A stretch of DNA of 47,491 bases, taken from positions 1-47,491 of IMG/VR virus record IMGVR_UViG_3300025889_000192; one strand, written 5' to 3'. This DNA comes from a virus. Of this stretch, positions 16,144 to 37,027 are shown one piece after another (the stretch's first letter is position 1; the number at the start of each line of letters is the position of its first letter). The position numbers and the translations under genes are program-made. Under the pieces are notes generated by a model. The model searched no databases. It had not been told where the DNA came from and saw only the letters and a list, made by a program, of their open reading frames with translations.

Positions 16144-18003
16144 TTATTCTAAATGTTTTTCTCTTATGAGGCGTTGGACGAACTCCTTGAATACTGATTT
16201 GGAGTTTTCTGGATTGATGACCTCACCATCTACAATCTCAGAGGCAATTTTCATCTTGTCATTAATGAGTTCTGCCATATATTCATCTATACTATCCTCA
16301 ACCGTCATATAATAGATTTGGACCTTAGCGTCTTGACCAATTCTATGCACACGGTCTTCTGCTTGTTCGTGGTTAGCAGGCACCCAATCCCTGTCTAGGA
16401 ATATCACGGTATCAATAACGTGTTGTAATCCGTCAATACCCATACCAGCTGCTTTAAGACTGAACAATCCTATCTTAGCTTCTTCACTGACCAACCTGTC
16501 AATACTTTCCTGTCGTTCTTCTTTTTTCATTGACCCATGTAAAAGTGCAGCATCGTGACCATAATGTTCTGCTAGTCGTTTGAGTGGTTCTACGAAACAA
16601 CAGAAGATAAGAATGGGTCTGTCGTTGTCCAGATACTCGTCTATGATTTCGTGGAGACGAGGCATCTTTTGGTCAATCAAGAACGATTGGATTTTAGGCA
16701 TTGTGCCTACGGTTGGTTTACCACTGAACTTCCACTCTTTAAACAATTCATCTAACATCTTTAGATACTCTCTACGTTCTTCGGTAGACATCTCAATGTA
16801 TAAATCGTTTCTTTGTTTATTGGGAAGTTCTTTTAACACATCACTCTTCTTACGACGGATGGTTAAATCTTTTGTGCGTTCGTGTAGTTCTCTTAGATTC
16901 TTGACCGGAACTCCTTTCCACCCACCATATCGTTCTGTGAAGTGATAGAAGTTACTGAACCTGTTACTGTCTAAGATGTGGAGAAGGGTGAATGCCTCAA
17001 TGGGGCGTGACATTACGGGCGTTCCTGTCAAAAACACAATGTGGTCAGTCTTGATGCCGGGATACTTTCTACGTTCTTTGTATGAACCAAGTAATGACTT
17101 AAACCTAATTGTATTTCTATTCTTTAGAAATGTAGCTTCATCACACACCAACATATCAAAGTCTATCTTACGTAATACATCGTGAACTTTACGCACCGCA
17201 TCATAGTTAATAATGTGGAACTGGTTTTCTAAATCACCATCCACATCTTTACTGGTCCATACTGTGCTAGGTAATCCAGTGAACTTCTTGACTTCTTTTC
17301 TCCAGTTAATGACCACAGATAAAGGTGCAACCACCAATGTCTTTAGGTTCATCAACTTAGCATATGCAATGGCTTGGACTGTCTTACCCAATCCCGGCTG
17401 GTCCGCGATTAATGCTCTACCTTTAGTATGATATAGGAACTCAACGCCGACTTTCTGGTATGGAAACAAGTCTAACTTGAGCCCTTCTATCTTAAAGTCG
17501 GTATCTTCTTTTTCTCTTACTTCGTGTCTAACCTTTTGTTCTTCTATGATTTCTTGGTAGATTAATTTAATCTTTGGTGTGACCTTTACCTCATAGGTTT
17601 TAATAATCTCAATAACCTTGGGTAACTGAACTAATGGAAACTCCCATTGTTTTTCTTTGTCATTCCATTTACGACCATCAATCGTAGCCTTGAATCTAGC
17701 AATAAGAGACTTGTCATATGGCATATTAATTTTTGCCATCTCATCATTTAACTCACTAATCTCAATTACTGTTTTGTGTTGTAAGTATTTGTTCTCAGTA
17801 GTTTTAACCCGTGGTAAATTGAGATGGCTAATGTCTTCATTTTGGAGTGCTAAAGAAACCGCTTCCCTCCATAGTGGAGAGAAGTCGGCTTTATCTTTAA
17901 TCCAATATGCATAATCTGGGCTTTCTCTTATGATGTGCGCAAGAGTATATCCTTTGAATTTACCAAAAGGAAATACCACAGATTCTGCCGAATCATGAGG
18001 CAC
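16144..18003 (-). CDS. SNF2-family ATPase, SMARCAL1/HARP-like, with extra N-terminal domain
   Basis: DNA-translocating ATPase likely to anneal or remodel forks, comparable to T4 UvsW in role. Order: a PFGKFKGYTLAHI module at 12-24 with YAYWI (a DUF3820-like domain, seen in exonuclease-like and phage proteins); a HARP-like segment about 98-150 (IARFKATIDGRKWNDKEKQW); then SF2 core with motif I DQPGLGKT at 201-208, motif II DEAT at 288-291 in place of DEAH, LTGTP, and C-core DRDWVPANHEQAEDRVHRIGQ, diagnostic of SNF2. The start is GTG 18003 without a clear ribosome site, just after the previous stop (TAAAGTG); reinitiation is likely. Confidence 0.87.
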   Translation of the reverse strand: MPHDSAESVVFPFGKFKGYTLAHIIRESPDYAYWIKDKADFSPLWREAVSLALQNEDISHLNLPRVKTTENKYLQHKTVIEISELNDEMAKINMPYDKSLIARFKATIDGRKWNDKEKQWEFPLVQLPKVIEIIKTYEVKVTPKIKLIYQEIIEEQKVRHEVREKEDTDFKIEGLKLDLFPYQKVGVEFLYHTKGRALIADQPGLGKTVQAIAYAKLMNLKTLVVAPLSVVINWRKEVKKFTGLPSTVWTSKDVDGDLENQFHIINYDAVRKVHDVLRKIDFDMLVCDEATFLKNRNTIRFKSLLGSYKERRKYPGIKTDHIVFLTGTPVMSRPIEAFTLLHILDSNRFSNFYHFTERYGGWKGVPVKNLRELHERTKDLTIRRKKSDVLKELPNKQRNDLYIEMSTEERREYLKMLDELFKEWKFSGKPTVGTMPKIQSFLIDQKMPRLHEIIDEYLDNDRPILIFCCFVEPLKRLAEHYGHDAALLHGSMKKEERQESIDRLVSEEAKIGLFSLKAAGMGIDGLQHVIDTVIFLDRDWVPANHEQAEDRVHRIGQDAKVQIYYMTVEDSIDEYMAELINDKMKIASEIVDGEVINPENSKSVFKEFVQRLIREKHLE

Positions 18004-18301: not shown

Positions 18302-18535
18302 TTATATTGGCCACTTGTCTTTTGGACATGACCGTTCTTTTGGACTGTAAACTTTTTTTGATATCGGACACCCACAGGCATCACATTTGAAATACATGAG
18401 ACTTTCTACAAATACATTAAATTCACAAGTATCACAAACTTTCATTCGTTGTTCTGCAATAAGTTGTTGTTCTTCGGTAGGATTAGCAGCACGTTTCCAA
18501 GCCACTGCAATTTCTAACATATTAGGTATTTTCAT
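18302..18535 (-). CDS. Zinc-ribbon protein
   Basis: 77 residues. After a helical start (LEIAVAWKRAANPTEEQQ) come cysteines Cys34/Cys37 (CDTC), Cys51/Cys54/Cys56 (CDACGC) and Cys70 (SCPKDKW), enough for one or two zinc sites. A very similar layout (xxC...CDxCGCPI...CPxxKW) is, as I recall, frequent as a small conserved protein in T4-like marine phages; its job is unknown to me. The stop codon overlaps nothing downstream; upstream, its ATG shares one base with the stop of the protease gene (TAATG), so it is made together with the protease. Confidence 0.6.
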   Translation of the reverse strand: MKIPNMLEIAVAWKRAANPTEEQQLIAEQRMKVCDTCEFNVFVESLMYFKCDACGCPISKKVYSPKERSCPKDKWPI

Positions 18536-20487
18536 TAAAAATATTTATCCCCATATTTAGCATCAACTACCCAGTCACTATCATTATACGTTACAAAATT
18601 TCCAGCTTCAGTTGAAATGTAAACTGTAGGCACAACTTCTTCTATATATTGTTTTATACCGTCATATTGTTCGACGGTTATCCATTTATCATTATGTAGG
18701 AATGGATGGTCATTTGTAATCTTGAGATCATTATCAATTATATAGTAACCTTCTCTCATGTGTTCGGTTACTACCTTAGTTACTTTAGTATATCCATCGT
18801 AAGCTGCGATCATATCTCCAACTCTAACATCTTCGACAGACACCAAGTCTCTTTCTCCTTGTTGTGTCATAACCATAACTTTCATATCATAATGTAAACA
18901 CGCCAGATCCGTACAAGTTCCTGCGCATGAACAAAAGAAGCCCACTTTATCTTCACAATCAGATGTCGTAGGAAAGCAACTTCCGGCTGTACAATCGTTA
19001 AATTGAATAAAAACTTCACCACTGTCTTCTATTATAGTACTAGGTCTGTCCTCAAAAGGATATTGATAATTTTCATCTGTGACCGCAACAACTAATAAAT
19101 CTCTATATACCATAACACCATTCTGATCATTACCTGCTATATAAATATCATACACACCCGTTGCGGTTAAACCGATTTCTGGAGAAAAGGTTAGGGTGTC
19201 ACCATTTAAACTCACCCAATCTGGTTTAATATGAAAACGTTCTCCATCACCCTGTGCTGATCTAAGAGAAGGAATTCTATCTATCTCCAAATGATCAATT
19301 AGTTCAGTATTATACTCCACCAAAAAATTAAATATTGTACCATTTTCTATTTCTAATGGACTAAAATGTTGTCTTAGATTAGTAAATGGACTAAAACTAG
19401 CAGAAGTTTGTAGTAGAAGATTTGGAGTTGTTCCATAAATGGTTTCATCTCTAAACAACAAATCTTCCGCGGCACTAGCAACAATAGTATATTGAATTTC
19501 TGCTGCCGAGGAGGAGGGAGACGCTTTAATATATTGTGCAACTACACCAGATGTTATTCCCGCTGCAACTGAGGTTCCAGATCTTGTTTCATATTCATCA
19601 GAATTTTCTTCAGTTACAATACGAGCGGTTCTAATGTCTATTCCAGGCGCCGTAATATCTACATCCGGTCCATAGTTCATTATTGAACTTGTTCCCAATG
19701 ATGACCAAGAAACAACACGATCATATACATCACTAGCACCAACTCCCAATACAGTATTTAATCCAACCGGAGAATAGTTATTGGCATCTAATCCGTAGTT
19801 TCCGGCAGATGCAACCACAACAAGATTGTCATCTTGTAATTCTGATATCTTAGCATCAAGAACAGCATTTCTCTCTATTGTCCAAGAACAATTAACCACG
19901 GAAACATTGGATTCGTCATGATCTTCTATTATAGCATCTAACGCTTGTAGAATAACACTAACGTTGGTCGTTCCGCTTGGTATTATAACGTTTTTTAAAA
20001 TGACATTTTTTGACATACCCACGGTTGAACCACCTATTACACTAGCTACACCCGTTCCATGTTGTTGTGGTGTAAAATCACTATTGTGGGACCACAAATC
20101 TATAACACTAGACGAACTAAATTCTGAATGTGTTTTGTCTACCCCAGTATCAATTACATAAACCGATACTCCATCTCCATAATTTAAAGGAAGATATAAT
20201 TTTTGAAGAGGTAGATTCTCAATAGAACATCTTAATTGGTGCCAGTAATTAGGGCTTGGTGTAGTTCCATGTACATTATAAGAAAAATCCTCTTTAACGT
20301 TTAATTGAACATCTTCATCATACACAAGTATTCCAGATATGTTTGAAAAATTAGTATCGGTAGATGATATATTAATTATTCTTGCATTAGGTAATGTAAA
20401 ATTAATAGTGACACCAAGTGACTCTAATTGTTGTATAAATACTGATAAATCTATATCTTTTTCGTATAATATATTATATGTAATCAT
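18535..20487 (-). CDS. Subtilisin-like serine protease fused to a C-terminal Hint domain
   Basis: 650 residues in four parts. (1) Residues 1-70: an alpha/beta segment resembling a subtilase propeptide. (2) Residues 100-320: peptidase S8 core with all catalytic residues visible: Asp113 (VIDTGVD), His143 (QHGTGVASV), Asn230 (ASAGN) and Ser306 (SGTSVAAG). (3) Residues about 340-500: a beta-rich domain ending in the Cys-rich FFCSCAGTCTDLA. (4) Cys530 to the end (121 residues): a Hint domain, with block A CLHYDMKV, block B ITNDHPFLHN, and a late block VYISTEAGNFVTY, but ending DAKYGDKYF instead of His-Asn. It thus could cleave before Cys530 but probably cannot splice. No signal peptide. Neighbours suggest a late, perhaps virion, protein. 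The first call is firm, the Hint call strong by motifs. Confidence 0.82.
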   Translation of the reverse strand: MITYNILYEKDIDLSVFIQQLESLGVTINFTLPNARIINISSTDTNFSNISGILVYDEDVQLNVKEDFSYNVHGTTPSPNYWHQLRCSIENLPLQKLYLPLNYGDGVSVYVIDTGVDKTHSEFSSSSVIDLWSHNSDFTPQQHGTGVASVIGGSTVGMSKNVILKNVIIPSGTTNVSVILQALDAIIEDHDESNVSVVNCSWTIERNAVLDAKISELQDDNLVVVASAGNYGLDANNYSPVGLNTVLGVGASDVYDRVVSWSSLGTSSIMNYGPDVDITAPGIDIRTARIVTEENSDEYETRSGTSVAAGITSGVVAQYIKASPSSSAAEIQYTIVASAAEDLLFRDETIYGTTPNLLLQTSASFSPFTNLRQHFSPLEIENGTIFNFLVEYNTELIDHLEIDRIPSLRSAQGDGERFHIKPDWVSLNGDTLTFSPEIGLTATGVYDIYIAGNDQNGVMVYRDLLVVAVTDENYQYPFEDRPSTIIEDSGEVFIQFNDCTAGSCFPTTSDCEDKVGFFCSCAGTCTDLACLHYDMKVMVMTQQGERDLVSVEDVRVGDMIAAYDGYTKVTKVVTEHMREGYYIIDNDLKITNDHPFLHNDKWITVEQYDGIKQYIEEVVPTVYISTEAGNFVTYNDSDWVVDAKYGDKYF

Positions 20488-21083
20488 TTATATATATTCT
20501 CCAATCCTAAACTATTCATTGCCCATTGTCTTTCTGCACAAAAATAACACCCCCCACATGGATTTTTATAACCATACCCTCTAGAGTATCCACACGATCT
20601 GGTTAAAGATAACAAATCTACTATATCGTTGTCAATATATAATTTTGTTATTTCTATTTTGTCCATATCTATGAACGGTCGTAAATGTTTTTCGTTTAAT
20701 GCCGGTCCCCTTATTGGAGGAGTATCATATTCAATATAGTTTGTTGGAACAAATTTATTTTCATCCCAAATTACCAAATTACAACCAGTATAAACATAGT
20801 CAGTGCCCATAACTTTTATTATTGAATCTACACTATCTCTTATATATTTTCTATTTGTAGGCAATACATTTTCTATCTGTATATTTAAATCATTGTTAAT
20901 CCAATCTATAACACGATTAATTATTTCAAAACGAAATTTATCAGTTCTCAAATATTGCGTATAAGTTGTTATTCTAATATTAGAATTATTTTTTGCTAAT
21001 AAATATAATAAAATAGAACTGTCTACTCCGCCTGATGTCATAACACCTATATGTTTAGAACCACTTGGAACTTCTATCTTCAT
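20484..21083 (-). CDS. QueC-like PP-loop ATPase, copy 1
   Basis: 199 residues. The N-terminal SGGVDSSI (17-24) is a PP-loop that adenylates a substrate carbonyl. The C-terminal zinc motif is C-x11-C-x2-C-x2-C followed by ER (the SC, NPC, GGC, YFC cysteines near 166-185), the pattern of 7-cyano-7-deazaguanine synthase QueC. The start MKIEVPSGSKHIGVMTSGG is paralogous to that of the next gene. QueC turns a carboxyl to an amide and nitrile using ATP and ammonia; here other 7-deazaguanine genes are missing from the window, so another carboxylate substrate in the glycan pathway is possible. ATGA overlap with the protease. Confidence 0.7.
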   Translation of the reverse strand: MKIEVPSGSKHIGVMTSGGVDSSILLYLLAKNNSNIRITTYTQYLRTDKFRFEIINRVIDWINNDLNIQIENVLPTNRKYIRDSVDSIIKVMGTDYVYTGCNLVIWDENKFVPTNYIEYDTPPIRGPALNEKHLRPFIDMDKIEITKLYIDNDIVDLLSLTRSCGYSRGYGYKNPCGGCYFCAERQWAMNSLGLENIYK

Positions 21084-21095
21084 ATATAATTATCC

Positions 21096-21662
21096 TTATC
21101 GTGTAGATAAATCCACCAGTTGTAATTCATCAAACGCCCACTTTCTTTCTCTACATTGCCAACACAAATTACATCTACCAACGGACTGTTCTGTACAAGT
21201 GTGTGTTAAATTTAACAATTCCCAAAGGTTATGTTTAACATATAATTCTAATATATCTGTTTTCCAAAAACTATAAAACGGTGAAGTTATTCTATCATTA
21301 TTTAAAAATTTTCTTATTGGACCACCTGGCAGTATTTTCTGTGGATAATCATTACACCCCATAAACAAATGATCAATTAAATTATGCCTAAATATTCTAT
21401 TCAAAGCATCACCGACGATTAAAGAGTGGTGTATATCTGGGTCACCTATTATAATAGGATTTTTAATATCGGTTGTTGTCTCTTTGGATATCCAATCTAT
21501 AACAGGTTGAACATAATTTTTAGCGCCATCATGTTTTGGAATTGTAAATGGTTGTATAGTTTTTTTTGTATTAATAGACAAAAGATATAATAGTAAACTA
21601 CTATCCATTCCACCAGATAATAATATACCTACTCTGTCTACATTTGGTATTTCTATTTTCAT
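21096..21662 (-). CDS. QueC-like PP-loop ATPase, copy 2
   Basis: 188 residues, paralog of the adjacent gene. PP-loop SGGMDSSL lies near residues 16-23. The zinc motif near the C-terminus, C-x7-C-x2-C-x2-C (CTEQSVGRC, NLC, WQC) followed by RERKW, has exactly the spacing of bacterial QueC. Middle region KNPIIIGDPDIHHSLIVG differs from copy 1, so substrate preference may differ. At 188 residues it is shorter than QueC (about 230). The copies are separated by 12 bases and both start MKIE[VI]P. ATGA overlap with the SGNH gene places it in the carbamoyltransferase operon. Asparagine synthase-like alternatives are less likely because of the zinc motif. Confidence 0.68.
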   Translation of the reverse strand: MKIEIPNVDRVGILLSGGMDSSLLLYLLSINTKKTIQPFTIPKHDGAKNYVQPVIDWISKETTTDIKNPIIIGDPDIHHSLIVGDALNRIFRHNLIDHLFMGCNDYPQKILPGGPIRKFLNNDRITSPFYSFWKTDILELYVKHNLWELLNLTHTCTEQSVGRCNLCWQCRERKWAFDELQLVDLSTR

Positions 21663-22249
21663 ATTCTTTGTAAAAAGTATTCGGCTATTTTTTTATAACC
21701 ATTATCATTTGGATGATAATCTTCTGCATAATCATCTTGTGTTAATATACTTCTAAATGATCCCTTGGACATGACCAATCCGTCTGTTCTATATACGACA
21801 TTAAGATCTTCTACATCATTAAAGGCCATAGCATAATAAAATTTATAAGTGTGTAATTTACAAAAATTCTCTACACATTTTAAATAAAAGGCAGTTTCTT
21901 GCATTGGATCTAATTGTAACACAGAAACTACCTCAGAAACATACCATTTGAAAAAATCTTCGTTGTGAGAGATGGAAAAATTTCTAATGTGTGTATTACT
22001 ATAAAAACTAAATCGTATTGGATCAGTCAATAAAAAAATTACAATTACGTCATCATATTTTTCTTTTAAATTTTCATGTTTTTTTGTGATCAATGTCTTA
22101 GCTGCACCAGAATTGGAATTGCCTCTAATCCCCAAGTTTATAAAATCATAACTTAATGCAGAAGAAACATAATCGCCCCACGATAATCCATTGGAAGAAC
22201 CTTGGCCATATGTCCAACTGTCACCCATTGTTATTAACAGACCACTCAC
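21659..22249 (-). CDS. SGNH/GDSL-like hydrolase (paralog A)
   Basis: 196 residues. Block I is LLITMGDSWTYGQGSS at about 4-19 with Ser11; NLGIRGNSNSG holds the block II Gly-Asn region; the C-terminal EDYHPNDNGYKKIAEYF carries the block V Asp-x-His pair. These proteins act as acetyl or acyl esterases/transferases on sugars and lipids. Start is GTG at 22249, overlapping the carbamoyltransferase stop (GTGA); an in-frame ATG seven codons later would remove the first strand. It is coupled to the downstream PP-loop gene by ATGA. Four further SGNH-like genes lie in this block. Confidence 0.75.
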   Translation of the reverse strand: MSGLLITMGDSWTYGQGSSNGLSWGDYVSSALSYDFINLGIRGNSNSGAAKTLITKKHENLKEKYDDVIVIFLLTDPIRFSFYSNTHIRNFSISHNEDFFKWYVSEVVSVLQLDPMQETAFYLKCVENFCKLHTYKFYYAMAFNDVEDLNVVYRTDGLVMSKGSFRSILTQDDYAEDYHPNDNGYKKIAEYFLQRI

Positions 22250-27549: not shown

Positions 27550-27578
27550 AATATAATTATTCCGTAAAAGTTTGTCAA
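27550..27578 (-). promoter_or_regulatory. Sigma70-type promoter inside the glycan block
   Basis: Minus strand: perfect TTGACA at 27578-27573, 17-base spacer, TATATT at 27555-27550. The -10 box ends 27 bases before the GT-HAD start. The -35 box overlaps the stop of the preceding SGNH gene. This is the cleanest promoter in the window and divides the block into an upstream and a downstream (QueC/carbamoyltransferase) transcription unit. Confidence 0.7.
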
Positions 27579-28276
27579 TGGTTTGTTTGCGTAATGTGTT
27601 CATATAATAAATCTGCCATTGTATGATGTTGTTCTTGGTTAGGATGACCTTGAATTTTCATAAAAGATTGCCAAGATTCGTCTTCAGGGTGATCAGAGAA
27701 TGTAAAATAATTGATGCCCATAGAATATGCTTTAGTCAATCCATGTCCTAATGCATCAAAAAATATTACATTAGGTAAATAATTTTGAAATAACACACAG
27801 TTTCTTCTGAGTGTATTACTTGCAACTCTGTTATCATACAAATATTTAAAATGAAATTCTATCCACTGATGGTATTCTTTCGCAGAACAACCAATATAGT
27901 CTAGTTGTGCGGAGACTCCCTCTGGGTTTTGAAGTTGTGGAAGAAACGGATAATGTTTTTTTCTTTGTTTAGAAAATAAATCTATTCTAGAAAGAGCAGT
28001 TAACCCAAACACAAATAAACTTTTCTTTACTTTATCATGATTTCGTATACACCAATCAAATGTAGTTCTAAACATTCGATCATTAGAACCTCCTGCCTGA
28101 GATAAATTTATGTCTTCACAATTTAATTTCTCCGCCAGTTTTCTTGAAAATCTATTTTCATACATTAATGAAGTAATTTCATTCGTCTGTAATTTAGGAT
28201 CTTCCACATACATACAAGCGCCATAGGAAAAACTACATCCATTTACCACCAAATATTCAATATTTTCTAAGTTCAT
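27575..28276 (-). CDS. SGNH/GDSL-like hydrolase (paralog B)
   Basis: 233 residues. The block I is VVNGCSFSYGA with Cys in place of the usual Asp before the Ser; AGGSNDRMFRTTF provides the Gly-Asn block; the C-terminus IQGHPNQEQHHTMADLL carries His-containing block V. It resembles paralog C (30479-31252) most. The Cys-Ser variant is frequent in marine phage SGNH proteins that I recall, but whether it is active is unclear. Starts with ATG 28276 overlapping the SDR by 20 bases; its stop overlaps the -35 of the strong promoter. Confidence 0.65.
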   Translation of the reverse strand: MNLENIEYLVVNGCSFSYGACMYVEDPKLQTNEITSLMYENRFSRKLAEKLNCEDINLSQAGGSNDRMFRTTFDWCIRNHDKVKKSLFVFGLTALSRIDLFSKQRKKHYPFLPQLQNPEGVSAQLDYIGCSAKEYHQWIEFHFKYLYDNRVASNTLRRNCVLFQNYLPNVIFFDALGHGLTKAYSMGINYFTFSDHPEDESWQSFMKIQGHPNQEQHHTMADLLYEHITQTNH

Positions 28277-29673: not shown

Positions 29674-30482
29674 GGTCCAAATTTCCAATAAGTATCCTGT
29701 AACATACTAACATTTTGTTCATAAATCCATTTAACACCTTTGGTATCTAATAATTCTCTCATAGTCTGAGGTGTGGGCCTACCATGTTTTCTTAACCTAC
29801 CTTCTCTGAACAAGAGTGGTGCTATATTAAGAGATAAATTAGTGATTCCATTTTTAAAATAAAATTCAGCTTCTCCATGATGACAACCATGATACTGTTG
29901 TGTTGGCAAAGAATCAAATAAATTCATAATAATATTCATACTTTTAGAATTACTAAAAATAAAATTATCATCATCTACTGCTAAATGTTGTAAATCTGAA
30001 CCTCTGATATTTGTTCCGCCTGGAGTCATTACTACTTTATGTTGTAAATAATACGGTTGTTTTATACAAATCCTAACACATTTATCTAAAATATCTTTAT
30101 TAATAAACATATCATTTCTGATCTGAAGAATCGAATCAAACAACATATCATTTTTATCTTCATAATTTTTTCTTAATGTCTGAACCTGCTTCATAGCATA
30201 TGCTCTAAGGAAACTATTAGGTAATCTCATGTGTTCTGGAAAATTAACTTCGGCTTCTGTGTGTAAAGAAAAATCTGTTATGAACTTATAGTTAGAATAA
30301 TCATGATCTTTCAAGTCTAGTTCTCCGAACCTATCTTTTTCATACCACTTGTGCCCTGTCCAAGTTGACAAGAAAAATACAAACTCAACTCTATTTTGGT
30401 ATAACGTATTCCAATATTCAAATAATGGATATGTTTCATTCCAATATCTAATCAACCCAGATATACAAACCGCTATTTTCAT
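29670..30482 (-). CDS. Glycosyltransferase-like protein, 'VCxSGxxR' family (1)
   Basis: 270 residues. Starts KIAVCISGLIRYW, shares the family pattern with the genes at 31265-32029 and 33645-34445: a beta strand 'KIAvCxSGxxR', then a DFF/FFLSTW segment, and the mid block DSILQIRNDMFINKD (like 'YDxVIxxRxDxxFxxD'), a DxD-like GT-A site. The C-terminus has GGTNIRGSDLQHLAVDDDNFIF and HHGEAEFYF. I infer a glycosyltransferase; the family name is not known to me. ATGA overlap with the SGNH gene before it. Confidence 0.55.
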   Translation of the reverse strand: MKIAVCISGLIRYWNETYPLFEYWNTLYQNRVEFVFFLSTWTGHKWYEKDRFGELDLKDHDYSNYKFITDFSLHTEAEVNFPEHMRLPNSFLRAYAMKQVQTLRKNYEDKNDMLFDSILQIRNDMFINKDILDKCVRICIKQPYYLQHKVVMTPGGTNIRGSDLQHLAVDDDNFIFSNSKSMNIIMNLFDSLPTQQYHGCHHGEAEFYFKNGITNLSLNIAPLLFREGRLRKHGRPTPQTMRELLDTKGVKWIYEQNVSMLQDTYWKFGP

Positions 30483-31252
30483 TTCTTTAAAATCAGATTT
30501 GTGAGGATATAATTATATAATTTATCGGCAAGTTCTCTGTTAGCTAATGGGCCGGGATGCATACATGGGGTTACATAACTATCTATAAAAGTTTCTGTGG
30601 GAGGGTTGTGATCATTCTCCTCCCAACCATATTTTCTACGAATATATTGACTCCATGTAAAATCATTTTCTGTTATTTTCATATAATTAAAATGTTCCTT
30701 ATTAGGAAGTTGTGGACACAAGGAACTAAAAATTACCATGTTTCCCCCATTCATTTGTATAAAATTTTGTATCATTAATAATTTTAAATATAATTCATCC
30801 GCTCTGACGGATTCATCATACGTATATTTATATAAATTAGTATTCCATTCTCTTGATTTATTTTTATCTAATACACCCGAAAAAATTTGTTCCCAATATT
30901 CAGGGAACCACCCCGTATCTATTGGTTCATGGGACCAAAATGTTCTATATTGTTTACCAACATTATCATAATATTCAATTCTAGAAAGTTCTGTCAATCC
31001 TACAATAAAAAGTGTATTTTTAACATTAGTTTTATTTTTAATTAACCAAGATGTTAATACTCTAGTAATATAATCATTAGAAGCGCCATTCTTTGCTAAA
31101 TTATTTTGATTAGAAGGCCGCTCGTCACAAGGAATTTTTAATTTTCTTTGTAGATGTATCATAAAATGATCTTGATGAAATCCAGTTCCATATAAATGAC
31201 CACCATCAACAAAACTACACCCAGTCACTATAATTCTATTGTAACGCATCAT
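30479..31252 (-). CDS. SGNH/GDSL-like hydrolase (paralog C)
   Basis: 257 residues. IIVTGCSFVDGGHLYG is block I with GCS, as in paralog B; KNGASNDYITRVLTSWL is the block with Gly-Asn; C-terminal CMHPGPLANRELADKLYNYI holds the HPG block V. SGNH and 'VCxSGxxR' genes alternate here. Start is ATG-ATG behind GAGGG at 31252. The C-terminus overlaps the glycosyltransferase-like gene (ATGA). Possibly an O-acetyl esterase or transferase; substrate unknown. Confidence 0.65.
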   Translation of the reverse strand: MMRYNRIIVTGCSFVDGGHLYGTGFHQDHFMIHLQRKLKIPCDERPSNQNNLAKNGASNDYITRVLTSWLIKNKTNVKNTLFIVGLTELSRIEYYDNVGKQYRTFWSHEPIDTGWFPEYWEQIFSGVLDKNKSREWNTNLYKYTYDESVRADELYLKLLMIQNFIQMNGGNMVIFSSLCPQLPNKEHFNYMKITENDFTWSQYIRRKYGWEENDHNPPTETFIDSYVTPCMHPGPLANRELADKLYNYILTNLILKK

Positions 31253-31264
31253 GTATAACCCTCA

Positions 31265-32029
31265 TTATTTTTTCCACTTGTTTTCAAGTATCCAACGCTC
31301 TTCTTCTGTTCCTAATATTTTATTCAATTCAGAATATGATAATTTATAATTTTTTTTAAAAGTAGAATGTAAAATGTGTGGTCTAATTAACCAACCCAGT
31401 ATATTATTTACCAACACTATGGAATTATAATACGCACAGAAAAATCCAATTACATGATGTGCTCCGGCTACAAAATTAAAATTTAATTCCAAATCCATTC
31501 TAGATACAAATAAATCGTTAAATAATTGTGAAAATAATTTAGATGCCGAATTATTTGCTATAAACAAAATTGGATCTGACATTACTAAACTACGTTCATA
31601 TATTTCCAGTTTAGTTTGCATTGAAAATATAGGTTTATTAAACTCTTTAAGAGTTAATAATTTGTTAAGTTCTGTTCTTAGATGATCTAAGTCGAACACA
31701 TAGTCAGTACGAGATATTATAACCAAATCATATTTAAAATTATGTAGGGTTTCATATTTTTCTTTCAAAGTAATAACTTGATTTATCAAATAAGTTTGAT
31801 ATGTCGGTGAACTATCTCCCAGATGTAAATTTTGTAATTTATTTTCTGTTTCGCTAAAATTCAAAAGTTGTTTATCTGTAAAATTTAGATCAAGTTTTCT
31901 AGAATCTCCATCATCCCAAGTAGAAATAAAAAAATCATATTCATTTTCTACCTGTTTAAACCATAGGTTTATAACATCAGAAACTCTGGTTTGGCCGTAA
32001 AAACAAAATGCTATTCTATAGTTTTTCAT
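31265..32029 (-). CDS. Glycosyltransferase-like protein, 'VCxSGxxR' family (2)
   Basis: 254 residues. Starts KNYRIAFCFYGQTRVSDV, same fold as its two paralogs: DFFISTWDDGD, YDLVIISRTDYVFDLDHL for the acidic site, and a C-terminal part with FVAGAHHVIGFFCAYY. Length and order of motifs agree with the other copies but identities look modest. It lies between two SGNH genes, overlapping the following SGNH stop by 14 bases. Inferred sugar transferase; no catalytic assay can be inferred. Confidence 0.55.
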   Translation of the reverse strand: MKNYRIAFCFYGQTRVSDVINLWFKQVENEYDFFISTWDDGDSRKLDLNFTDKQLLNFSETENKLQNLHLGDSSPTYQTYLINQVITLKEKYETLHNFKYDLVIISRTDYVFDLDHLRTELNKLLTLKEFNKPIFSMQTKLEIYERSLVMSDPILFIANNSASKLFSQLFNDLFVSRMDLELNFNFVAGAHHVIGFFCAYYNSIVLVNNILGWLIRPHILHSTFKKNYKLSYSELNKILGTEEERWILENKWKK

Positions 32030-32810
32030 GTATGATATTATAAATGTTTTTAGCTATTAGTTGATGACCCAATTCACTAGGATGTAGATGATTGTTTATA
32101 TTAATATTTATAAAATTTTTATCTTCAAAAAAAGTATCGTCGTGTTGTTCGTCTATCCAATCATACAAAGTTTTTTCTTGAAAATATTTAGAGGTGTCTA
32201 CCAAAACATTATCAAAATTTAAATTTTCAAAAGCATCAAACATAAAAAGTTTGATTTCTTTTTCTGCAAAATATTTTTGTAATAAACAAATGTAATTAGT
32301 ATTTAATTTTTTATAATAACTTTCGTCATGTAAGTTTTGAAGATAAAAATTGAAATATCTTTTCATGAAAGGGGTCATGTCATCTAATACATACTGTTTG
32401 ATCACAGGATCGTCGTCAGTAAAATATCTTGTGAATGGATGAGAATGATCCACTATAGCGGCTAGTTCTTTTAGTGACCATGACAATCCAATGGGACCAT
32501 TCCTAGAAAACAAATTTGGAAAGAATGGCAAATGATCGCGAAGAGGCGAACTCCACGCTATTATTATTACATCATTTGAACGAATTTTAAACTTAGAATA
32601 CATTTCAAATATATTGTTAAAAATTCTATAGTTGGAGCTACCCGTTTCTCCATAATTTACATAGTCCACCTGACACAAATCAGATAAATATTTAGGCCAT
32701 GCATGAGATCTCTCATATTTTTGTTGTTCTCCATAACTTAATGTATTGGTAACAGAATGATTTGTTCCTTCACCCTGAGTAAAACTATCTCCAAAACATA
32801 TTAATCTCAT
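32016..32810 (-). CDS. SGNH/GDSL-like hydrolase (paralog D)
   Basis: 264 residues. LICFGDSFTQGEGTN is a canonical GDSF block I; NYGETGSSNYRIFN gives the block II Gly; NDVIIIAWSS is block III-like; NNHLHPSELGHQLIAKNI carries the block V His. This is the most canonical SGNH in the series. ATGA overlap with the GT47-like gene. Possibly an acyl hydrolase acting on the polysaccharide or its lipid carrier. Confidence 0.72.
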   Translation of the reverse strand: MRLICFGDSFTQGEGTNHSVTNTLSYGEQQKYERSHAWPKYLSDLCQVDYVNYGETGSSNYRIFNNIFEMYSKFKIRSNDVIIIAWSSPLRDHLPFFPNLFSRNGPIGLSWSLKELAAIVDHSHPFTRYFTDDDPVIKQYVLDDMTPFMKRYFNFYLQNLHDESYYKKLNTNYICLLQKYFAEKEIKLFMFDAFENLNFDNVLVDTSKYFQEKTLYDWIDEQHDDTFFEDKNFINININNHLHPSELGHQLIAKNIYNIIHEKL

Positions 32811-34909: not shown

Positions 34910-36194
34910 TTAATAACCTCATTTTTAATTCACTGTCAACATCAAAATTAGCTATAACATTTACATTATGTTGTAAAACCTCTTTCATCTCAACATACAT
35001 CTCTAACAATTCTTCGTTGCTCTTTTGAGAAACTTCACACACAACCCTTATTACCTCACGTAATCTGTCCCACGGATCTTCTATGTCGTCATATCCCTCA
35101 TCCCACCAATTATAAAATGTTTTAAAACCATAATTTCGTAATATTGATAGAGATTTATATGGACCAAATTGTATTATTGGGTGACCACAATAAATGGGAT
35201 TGAAGGTAGAACTATGCATATGCATGGAATCATTTTCAAAAGGAAACGCACACATTACTATACTAATAAAACTATTTCTGTAATGAACTGGGTTGAATGG
35301 CAAGTCAGCGTTAAAGAAGCCCACCCCCACGCCGCCTGGGCCATGATTGGTTTCATCGGTATGATCTATATCAAAAGGTATTTTTGATCGTAAATTAACA
35401 ATATTATCTTCCTCTAAATACTGTGAAAATTGTGTGAACGCGTCTAAAGGTTCGTCAAACATCCTTGGAAAACTTATCAAACATTTATCTAACAATCTTT
35501 CTTTATTTAAAAACAACATAAATACATCTCGCTCAGGCCGACCAGTTCTGTTTATTTTTAAAAATGGTTTTATTGTATGTAAATTTTTTGTTTTATAATC
35601 TATTTCTTCATCAATACATACCCGACTAGGCAAATGATTTAAATGAATCAATCTCTTAACATCACCCACATTATACATATAAGAAATTACATTGATATGA
35701 CTTTTTCTATTTGTTGTTTGTAACCACTCCATGTGTTGTTTTTCTGCTAACAAATTATTAGTAACAAAATATATATTTTTTGGTGGTAAATTTAGTTCAT
35801 CAATACTATTATAAAATGGAATCAAAAAGTCGTCATCTTTAATTGTTTTCCCTTCTAATGTATTGTCAAAAACTAATTTACATTTATCATGTCTAACCGC
35901 ATCTAATATGTGAGATGGAATCACATCTATATTTCTAGACCACAACTCTTGATTGTAATGAGTAGTAACAAAATAAAAAAATTGTTCATCTGATAATACC
36001 CGTCTTACCGTATTCATATTTATTATATCTGGCATACTAGACTGACTAAACAAGGGTCTAAACATCCAATCACCATGATTATCTTGTTCTGGAATATACT
36101 CTTCGTCATCTACTGCATTGTATATTTGTCTAACATACGACGACATATTATGCATATCAGTTTGATTAAACTTATCTATTAGAGCTTTATTCAT
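34899..36194 (-). CDS. Glycosyltransferase-like protein
   Basis: 431 residues from ATG 36194. The C-terminal block STFNPIYCGHPIIQFGPYKS and LSILRNYGFKTFYNWWDEGYDDIEDPWDRL follows a pattern I recall from marine phage proteins, '(S)EKTFKPI..gHPFI.fG....L..Lr..GFkTF...wDEsYD.i.d', thought to be GT-B-like transferases. N-terminal half has no clear motif (IYFVTNNLLAEKQHMEWL). The chosen ATG has AAAGGA eight bases upstream and overlaps the previous stop as ATGA; an earlier in-frame start at 36233 lacks such a site. Transferase assignment is from recall and position only. Confidence 0.55.
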   Translation of the reverse strand: MNKALIDKFNQTDMHNMSSYVRQIYNAVDDEEYIPEQDNHGDWMFRPLFSQSSMPDIINMNTVRRVLSDEQFFYFVTTHYNQELWSRNIDVIPSHILDAVRHDKCKLVFDNTLEGKTIKDDDFLIPFYNSIDELNLPPKNIYFVTNNLLAEKQHMEWLQTTNRKSHINVISYMYNVGDVKRLIHLNHLPSRVCIDEEIDYKTKNLHTIKPFLKINRTGRPERDVFMLFLNKERLLDKCLISFPRMFDEPLDAFTQFSQYLEEDNIVNLRSKIPFDIDHTDETNHGPGGVGVGFFNADLPFNPVHYRNSFISIVMCAFPFENDSMHMHSSTFNPIYCGHPIIQFGPYKSLSILRNYGFKTFYNWWDEGYDDIEDPWDRLREVIRVVCEVSQKSNEELLEMYVEMKEVLQHNVNVIANFDVDSELKMRLLNEP

Positions 36195-37027
36195 ATAACA
36201 TCCTTTATGTGATTGTAAACAACGTTTGCCCAAATTTTATGACCCTCTCTGTTTGGGTGATGTTGATCTGGTTCAAATAAATTATCATGTCCGTTTTCCA
36301 TCAATGTCATAATATGATTTCTAAAAGATCCTTTTATAAAAATTTGATCGTAAAGTTTGCTAAAATTTTTTACTGTACTTTTATTTATAGAAGCCTGTCC
36401 TGTTAAGTCATCCATCAAATCTGACTTATAAAAAATACCCACAAAATCATTATCGACACTCATTTCATACGGAGTCTTTTCTAAATCAAATTTACACTCG
36501 TAAAACGCATTAAAAAATATATGTTTGATATTTTTATCTTTCAAAAAATAATGTAACAAATAGTTTTGTTGTATATGTCTAGTAATAAATTCCGCTTGGT
36601 TCCAAAAATATTGTATATATGTTTTGTAAAAATCTTGTATATCTTTCTTTGTGTTAATAGTACATTCAAAAAAAGATGGGTATAATGTTTCCCACCCTGT
36701 GTGTTCTATTGATGTGTAATAAAAATCTTTTCGTTCGGGGGAAGACCACCCCACTATGACAAATAATTCTTCTGGAGAATATAATTCCTCTTCTAAAAAA
36801 TAATTTATGTTATCAATTATTCTTCTACACACACCGTCATTAGAACTGCCGGCTCGAGCAATATTTAGCACAGGAATGTTTGATAATTTTTCTAAATCAT
36901 TTGGCCACAATTTTGACAATCTATAATCATCGTTTCTTTCGTCATTAACATTAGTTGTATCTATTGTTGGATCAATCATGTCACCAGCGGTCCAACTATC
37001 CCCATCGCAAAGTATCAATTTAATCAT
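36191..37027 (-). CDS. SGNH/GDSL-like hydrolase (paralog E)
   Basis: 278 residues. LILCDGDSWTAGDMID is block I with GDS; NIARAGSSNDGVCRRII matches the Gly-Asn block; LFEPDQHHPNREGHKIWANVV carries Asp-x-His block V. Similar in order to paralog A. Coupled ATGA overlap to both the glycosyltransferase-like gene and the 303-residue gene. Fifth SGNH-like copy in the block. Confidence 0.72.
   Translation of the reverse strand: MIKLILCDGDSWTAGDMIDPTIDTTNVNDERNDDYRLSKLWPNDLEKLSNIPVLNIARAGSSNDGVCRRIIDNINYFLEEELYSPEELFVIVGWSSPERKDFYYTSIEHTGWETLYPSFFECTINTKKDIQDFYKTYIQYFWNQAEFITRHIQQNYLLHYFLKDKNIKHIFFNAFYECKFDLEKTPYEMSVDNDFVGIFYKSDLMDDLTGQASINKSTVKNFSKLYDQIFIKGSFRNHIMTLMENGHDNLFEPDQHHPNREGHKIWANVVYNHIKDVI

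Follow-up and report, generated by a model that had tools for sequence, protein, structure and literature searches.

Why should a phage protease carry a Hint domain at its end when the residues for protein splicing are missing from that domain? This question was raised by one gene of the window, by which we mean the whole stretch of DNA that was analysed, a single linear IMG/VR record (G000) of 47,491 bases. The first-pass annotation had described a subtilisin fused to a Hint domain and had suggested that Cys530 could drive an N-S shift, which would cut off the C-terminal 121 residues or attach them to a nucleophile, perhaps under control of the protease. The S8 catalytic residues, Cys530, both Hint motifs and the DAKYGDKYF end were all found in the translation where it had placed them, and the S8 assignment was borne out by Pfam. 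The gene, its parts and its direct neighbors are listed below, where L112 and L121 are two loci with orthologous S8 genes.

18535..20487, minus strand: S8-Hint gene, ATG start, 650 aa (ORF call and translation)
20248..20487, minus strand: residues 1-80, N-terminal region, conserved in L112 and L121
19468..20178, minus strand: residues 104-340, Peptidase S8 domain (Pfam PF00082)
19018..19410, minus strand: residues 360-490, poorly conserved in the alignment to the orthologues, beta-rich by inspection only
18901..18993, minus strand: residues 499-529, six-cysteine tail (C499, C504, C511, C519, C521, C525), all six invariant in the orthologue alignment
18538..18900, minus strand: residues 530-650, Hint domain (Pfam Vint, independent HMM, model and PDB fold match)
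18898..18900, minus strand: Cys530, the Cys1 of the Hint, invariant in 25/25 aligned Hints; the predicted cut lies just before it
18706..18717, minus strand: TxxH motif T591-N-D593-H594, with Thr, Asp and His invariant in 25/25
20484..21083, minus strand: QueC-like PP-loop gene directly upstream (PF06508, 3e-07), which precedes the S8 gene in L112 and L121 too
18302..18535, minus strand: DUF6171-like gene directly downstream (PF19668, 1.3e-04, under the cut-off); a similar gene follows in L112 and L121

The protease part was clear. PF00082 matched the protein at 7e-28 (98 bits against a cut-off of 21.8) and at 2.7e-30 in a second search. The positions of Asp113, His143, Asn230 and Ser306 are invariant in both full-length orthologues (L112 and L121), and the Asp/His/Ser triad is accompanied by Asn230, the oxyanion-hole residue of S8 proteases. 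Residues 1-80 had no Pfam match and no apparent signal peptide, and they are probably an inhibitor-like prodomain. Residues 360-490 had no family match in Pfam. A weak Rieske match at residues 467-529 was judged to be a chance result of the Cys pattern, and a single-sequence model of the whole protein (pLDDT 32) was of no use.

The C-terminal part is a Hint domain, as the first-pass annotation had claimed. Pfam Vint matched from residue 530, at 5.2e-07 (30.1 bits) with the C-terminal 151 aa and at 5.8e-06 (26.6 bits) with the whole protein, the cut-off being 27; this match spans only positions 2-75 of the 166 positions of the Vint model. In addition, a family HMM that left out the window, L002/L018, L035 and one frameshifted row found the window's Hint with E = 9e-26 and reported 0 of 1,000 shuffled tails. 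An AlphaFold model based on the 25-row alignment gave an all-beta domain (pLDDT 84, pTM 0.74). Its fold matches in the PDB were the gp41-1 intein (7e-5, the best), the class 3 intein 6zgq, Vint 8r2c (3.5e-4) and other inteins, and hedgehog 1at0 was a weaker match (5e-3). By sequence profile alone, the best PDB match was Vint 8r2c (2e-4), followed by a weak one to the BIL 2lwy (0.008). By its modelled fold, its N-terminal Cys530 and the T591 and H594 of TxxH, the domain is a member of the Hint superfamily. It contains the motifs CLHYDMKV and ITNDHPF. The protein stops at VVDAKYGDKYF, without a C-terminal His-Asn, a +1 nucleophile or a C-extein, and is thus not a splicing intein.

The missing splicing end is not peculiar to the window. 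One DNA pattern scan of the viral collection gave 49 IMG/VR loci, all with a motif-bearing frame; hand-made DNA patterns worked here, and there was almost no yield from peptide patterns, whether made from the full protein or from a two-row Hint alignment. In the 25-row Hint alignment, there is no variation at Cys1, at the Thr, Asp and His of TxDH or at the positions of H576, R578 and Y581, and for Cys1 and TxDH this holds in members down to about 30% identity. The C-terminal block is VHG, VSG, VDA or similar, with His-Asn in 0/25 rows; L061, a locus outside this alignment, keeps NHN at its Hint end. The Hint is C-terminal in every carrier with a readable end, and Vint is the nearest Pfam family for 19 of the 25 members.

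What reaction could such a domain carry out? In Hog, the residue that attacks the preceding carbonyl is Cys258, and two residues of the TxxH motif, T326 and H329, matter for activity; the N-S shift needs Cys1 and TxxH, and the resulting thioester is taken by cholesterol (PMC9163320). Type B BILs are without block G and cut without splicing (PMC4031507). Since the phage Hint family keeps Cys1 and TxxH and has no Asn, N-terminal cleavage is the expected reaction, and the best reading of the sequence is that this Hint would be N-cleaving and work like a type B BIL. In the window's protein, the Ala529-Cys530 peptide bond would be moved onto the thiol of Cys530 with the help of T591 and H594. Water or a small nucleophile would then break the thioester, and protease 1-529 would be freed from the 121-residue Hint. 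The cut proposed by the first-pass annotation is therefore plausible, because the residues for the N-S shift are kept and the splicing end is absent. It gains weight because no member of the aligned family has the Asn. It should be noted that the conservation of Cys530 is read across the carriers of the Hint family, as the S8-Hint fusion itself is a single record.

The orthologues give a second line of evidence. An initial S8 pattern that used the D/H spacing had found only a few distant or unrelated sequences. We also observed that the S8 gene of L062 (CAKLQH020000012.1, labelled Acinetobacter phage MD-2021a) is surrounded by iscS, pheP and a sulfate transporter, which makes this stretch of the record resemble bacterial chromosome. 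A second DNA pattern scan found L112 and L121, which encode S8 proteins of 516 aa with 41% and 44% identity to window residues 1-525 and 1-529, respectively; a scan with the three-row S8 alignment gave no further S8 orthologue. Both proteins share the N-terminal region, the catalytic residues and the six tail cysteines with the window's protein, and then they stop. L121 ends with NGTCDTFA and a stop, whereas the window has AGTCTDLA and then Cys530, and L121 thus stops at the position of residue 529. L112 ends with NGTCGTHGEQCLF and a stop, and its end lies five residues beyond that of L121. A search of the remainder of L112, L114, L119 and L121 gave no Hint. The Cys-rich section that the first-pass annotation had seen before the Hint is indeed present; because its six cysteines are invariant in the Hint-less orthologues, we assign this stretch to the protease and not to the Hint. 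Furthermore, as the orthologues end in the same six-Cys tail, the Hint is an add-on at the natural end of the protease, and judging from one fusion and two close orthologues it was likely added in the window's lineage.

The predicted cut before Cys530 gains further weight because one Hint-less orthologue ends exactly at position 529. A cut at 529/530 would give the protease an ordinary C-terminus again, and the freed protease 1-529 would have the same kind of C-terminus as the Hint-less orthologues. The coincidence of the cut site with the L121 end supports the release of a normal protease. However, only one of the two orthologues gives an exact boundary, and a fusion of any kind at the C-terminus would begin close to the former stop. 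Taken together, we give a probability of about 0.62 to the reading that a mobile non-splicing Hint sits on the natural end of the protease and releases protease 1-529 by an N-side cut. The occurrence and the timing of the cut at Cys530 are predictions from sequence and model.

A fusion that is seen in one record only, with related-phage records lacking it, could also be an artefact of assembly or a chance joining of two separate genes in one frame. We consider this very unlikely: the frame is intact, the GC content of the two parts is similar (0.35 and 0.33), the Hint starts directly at Cys1 without a stray linker, and on either side the flanks, QueC-like and DUF6171-like, agree with the orthologous cassette. 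L112 and L121 have the same flanks with one extra gene between, which is sulfotransferase-like in L121. Beside the S8 gene, at 20484-21662 of the window, there are two QueC-like PP-loop genes in tandem, which share about 30% identity. For these neighbors, we considered the QueC-type protein deazaguanylation of QatC and type IV CBASS (PMC13279940) as a conceivable role.

The gene content of the window points to a T4-like myovirus, with a T4-type baseplate protein (PF12322), a helicase, ribonucleotide reductase, DnaB-like and UvsX-like proteins. Genes of LamG- and S74-type fibres lie at 42.8-47.4 kb, and between them and the S8 gene there is a long block with carbamoyltransferase, aminotransferase, radical-SAM, nucleotidyltransferase and SGNH-type genes. 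By inspection, five genes are SGNH-hydrolase-like (21659-22249, 27575-28276, 30479-31252, 32016-32810 and 36191-37027), of which Pfam confirmed the first only. Relatives of the helicase gene mostly have 86-97% identity (59% in L009), and their records carry other genes at the place of the S8 gene; in eight such records, which are fragments, neither an S8 gene nor a Hint of the window's kind was found. The S8-Hint gene thus lies in a variable region, where relatives have fibre genes, and this region recalls the host recognition cluster described for pelagimyophages (PMC7029224).

Two side observations were made at this place. In L009 (104-4518), the place of the S8 cassette is taken by proteins with long HTDNTT/HTNI-type repeats and collagen-like GPTGPTG repeats. 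In addition, the helicase gene orthologous to window 16144-18003 has an insert of ~935 bp at residue 169-170 in two records (L007:172-1107 and L008:998-1933). The L007 insert holds a Cys-rich, HNH-like frame, so that an intron encoding a homing endonuclease is probable; Rfam gave no match for the insert of L007/L008.

The Hint family has many carriers that are not proteases. Carriers of about 1,330-1,660 aa match DUF4815 and the N-part of baseplate protein VrlC. In phages C48C1, HTVC008M, Mosig and Melnitz, VrlC is without a Hint and is a single chain of 1,661-2,127 aa; it is one chain in cultured Kyanoviridae. Carriers of the VrlC N-part were found at 18 loci (including L014, L016, L027, L034, L041 and L048-L052), and there the Hint ends the first half. 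The next gene was the VrlC C-half in all 17 loci with readable downstream DNA, which are not 17 independent events because several are closely related. The C-half gene starts 2-32 nt after the Hint-bearing N-half gene. A second group of carriers, assigned by inspection, lies between portal-like and scaffold-like genes of podovirus-type contigs. Also by inspection, L037 is a tip-like protein and L002 and L035 are fibre-like; a search for Hint-less orthologues of the L035 fibre gave N-terminal matches only. In the phylogenetic tree, the window's Hint grouped with L002 and L035 (support 100/99), and VrlC-borne and podovirus-type-borne Hints were similar within one clade; the deep forks are unsure because of several long branches. 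On these comparisons the Hint module has evidently moved between unrelated carrier proteins. In addition, the sister Hints on fibre-like and baseplate proteins, together with the gene's place in a variable fibre-gene region, suggest a virion context for the S8-Hint protein, and we infer that the protease may belong to the virion or be associated with assembly.

This distribution does not favour the proposed control of the Hint by the protease. The Hint rides many non-protease carriers and the S8 protease occurs without a Hint; as the two parts occur apart, we dropped this as the favoured idea.

The same distribution could mean that a decayed intein or Hint serves as a structural or chaperone-like tail, or is merely carried along, without any catalysis. 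Such a domain would have lost its C-terminal splice residues and could move between carriers, as is seen here, and in VrlC the Hint sits at the point where one protein became two genes, as expected of a broken intein. However, drift would not keep Cys1 and TxDH invariant across strongly diverged members, and on its new carrier the window's copy still has them. We therefore regard a tail without catalysis as improbable.

An N-side thioester could also be used for ligation instead of release, as the first-pass annotation had supposed with its attachment to a nucleophile. In that case, it is protease 1-529 and not the 121 residues that would carry the thioester and be attached. The thioester would be passed to a protein amine, a sugar or another small molecule, and the protease would become attached to the virion or tagged. 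This outcome is possible if unlikely. The thioester is the expected intermediate and is taken by cholesterol in Hog (PMC9163320), H576, R578 and Y581, which are invariant and specific to the family, could act in an acceptor step, and genes of sugar- and PP-loop-type enzymes are among the neighbors; the VrlC halves are separate adjacent gene products and could in principle be joined. However, no acceptor site or adduct-binding region could be identified, and the carriers are very diverse. A narrower claim within ligation is a general trans-ligating device that tailors virion proteins, whose thioester would join each carrier (VrlC N-half, fibre or S8 protease) to a defined acceptor. For example, the VrlC N-half could be joined to its separately encoded C-half, unlike in known inteins. 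We find this general system decidedly improbable, and we retain the release of protease 1-529 as the preferred reading.

Within the sensitivity of the searches run, the Hint family looks phage-borne and largely uncultivated. The same DNA pattern gave one clear Hint member in 84,980 bacterial and archaeal genomes, and the family Hint query had one match at E<=1e-3 in 50,697 phage records, in phage NCTB. This one member, L092 (NZKY01000163.1), was binned in an Opitutia MAG but appears to come from a phage, because its VrlC-Hint gene is nearly identical to that of the phage contig L034. All other matches that were inspected, among them those in Chryseobacterium, were short spurious frames and not Hint proteins. 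The phages with related Hint modules would be mostly marine, and so would the virus of the window, judging from the kinds of relatives. In phage NCTB, one tail-fibre locus (L074:4813-12072) holds three Hint-type genes, two on long carriers that end with HNA and a short tail and one that codes for a free-standing protein of 153 aa.

Should the predicted cut take place, phages would have a C-terminal module that removes itself, on a protease as well as on several unrelated proteins of virion type, and this would be a bacterial-virus counterpart of hedgehog-style autoprocessing. The exact predicted site comes from the comparison of Hint-bearing and Hint-less orthologues. It would then be asked why a domain is added only to be removed, and assembly timing, chaperoning or a thioester for a link could be the answer. 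On its own, the one S8 fusion is a modest result. The phage Hint family is of more interest, as is its place at the VrlC split, where a splicing element may have been caught in the course of becoming a cleaving one. In the phage Hint-domain literature searched, with subscription journals thinly covered, we found no description of Hint carriers of these kinds, which is weak evidence of novelty.

Compared with known systems, inteins such as gp41-1 gave the best fold matches of the window's Hint model; however, they have a C-extein, His-Asn and a +1 nucleophile, and the window's Hint has none of the three. In phage NCTB, collagen-like tail proteins with an annotation as intein domain proteins likewise carry a C-terminal Hint, but they are distant (33% identity over 65% of the query) and their Hint ends keep His-Asn (CIHNA and LVHNA). 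Vint (PF14623; Tetrahymena VWA-Vint, PDB 8r2c) is also a C-terminal Hint with Cys1 and TxxH. It was defined on eukaryotic VWA-Vwaint proteins, whereas the window's Hint is on a phage S8 carrier with no VWA match. Hog is similar in its C-terminal position, Cys1, TxxH and fold (1at0). However, its sterol-recognition region is absent from the window's protein, which ends at the last strand of the Hint and has no known adduct. Type B BILs have block A and B motifs without block G, as seen in our alignment when set against their definition (PMC4031507), and the likeness is by this definition only; they were described from bacterial proteins, whereas the phage Hint family has its own invariants HxRxxY. 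Finally, the S8 proteases of L112 and L121 are orthologous to the window's protein and have the same six-Cys tail and the same flanking genes, and the Hint domain is what sets the window's protein apart from them.
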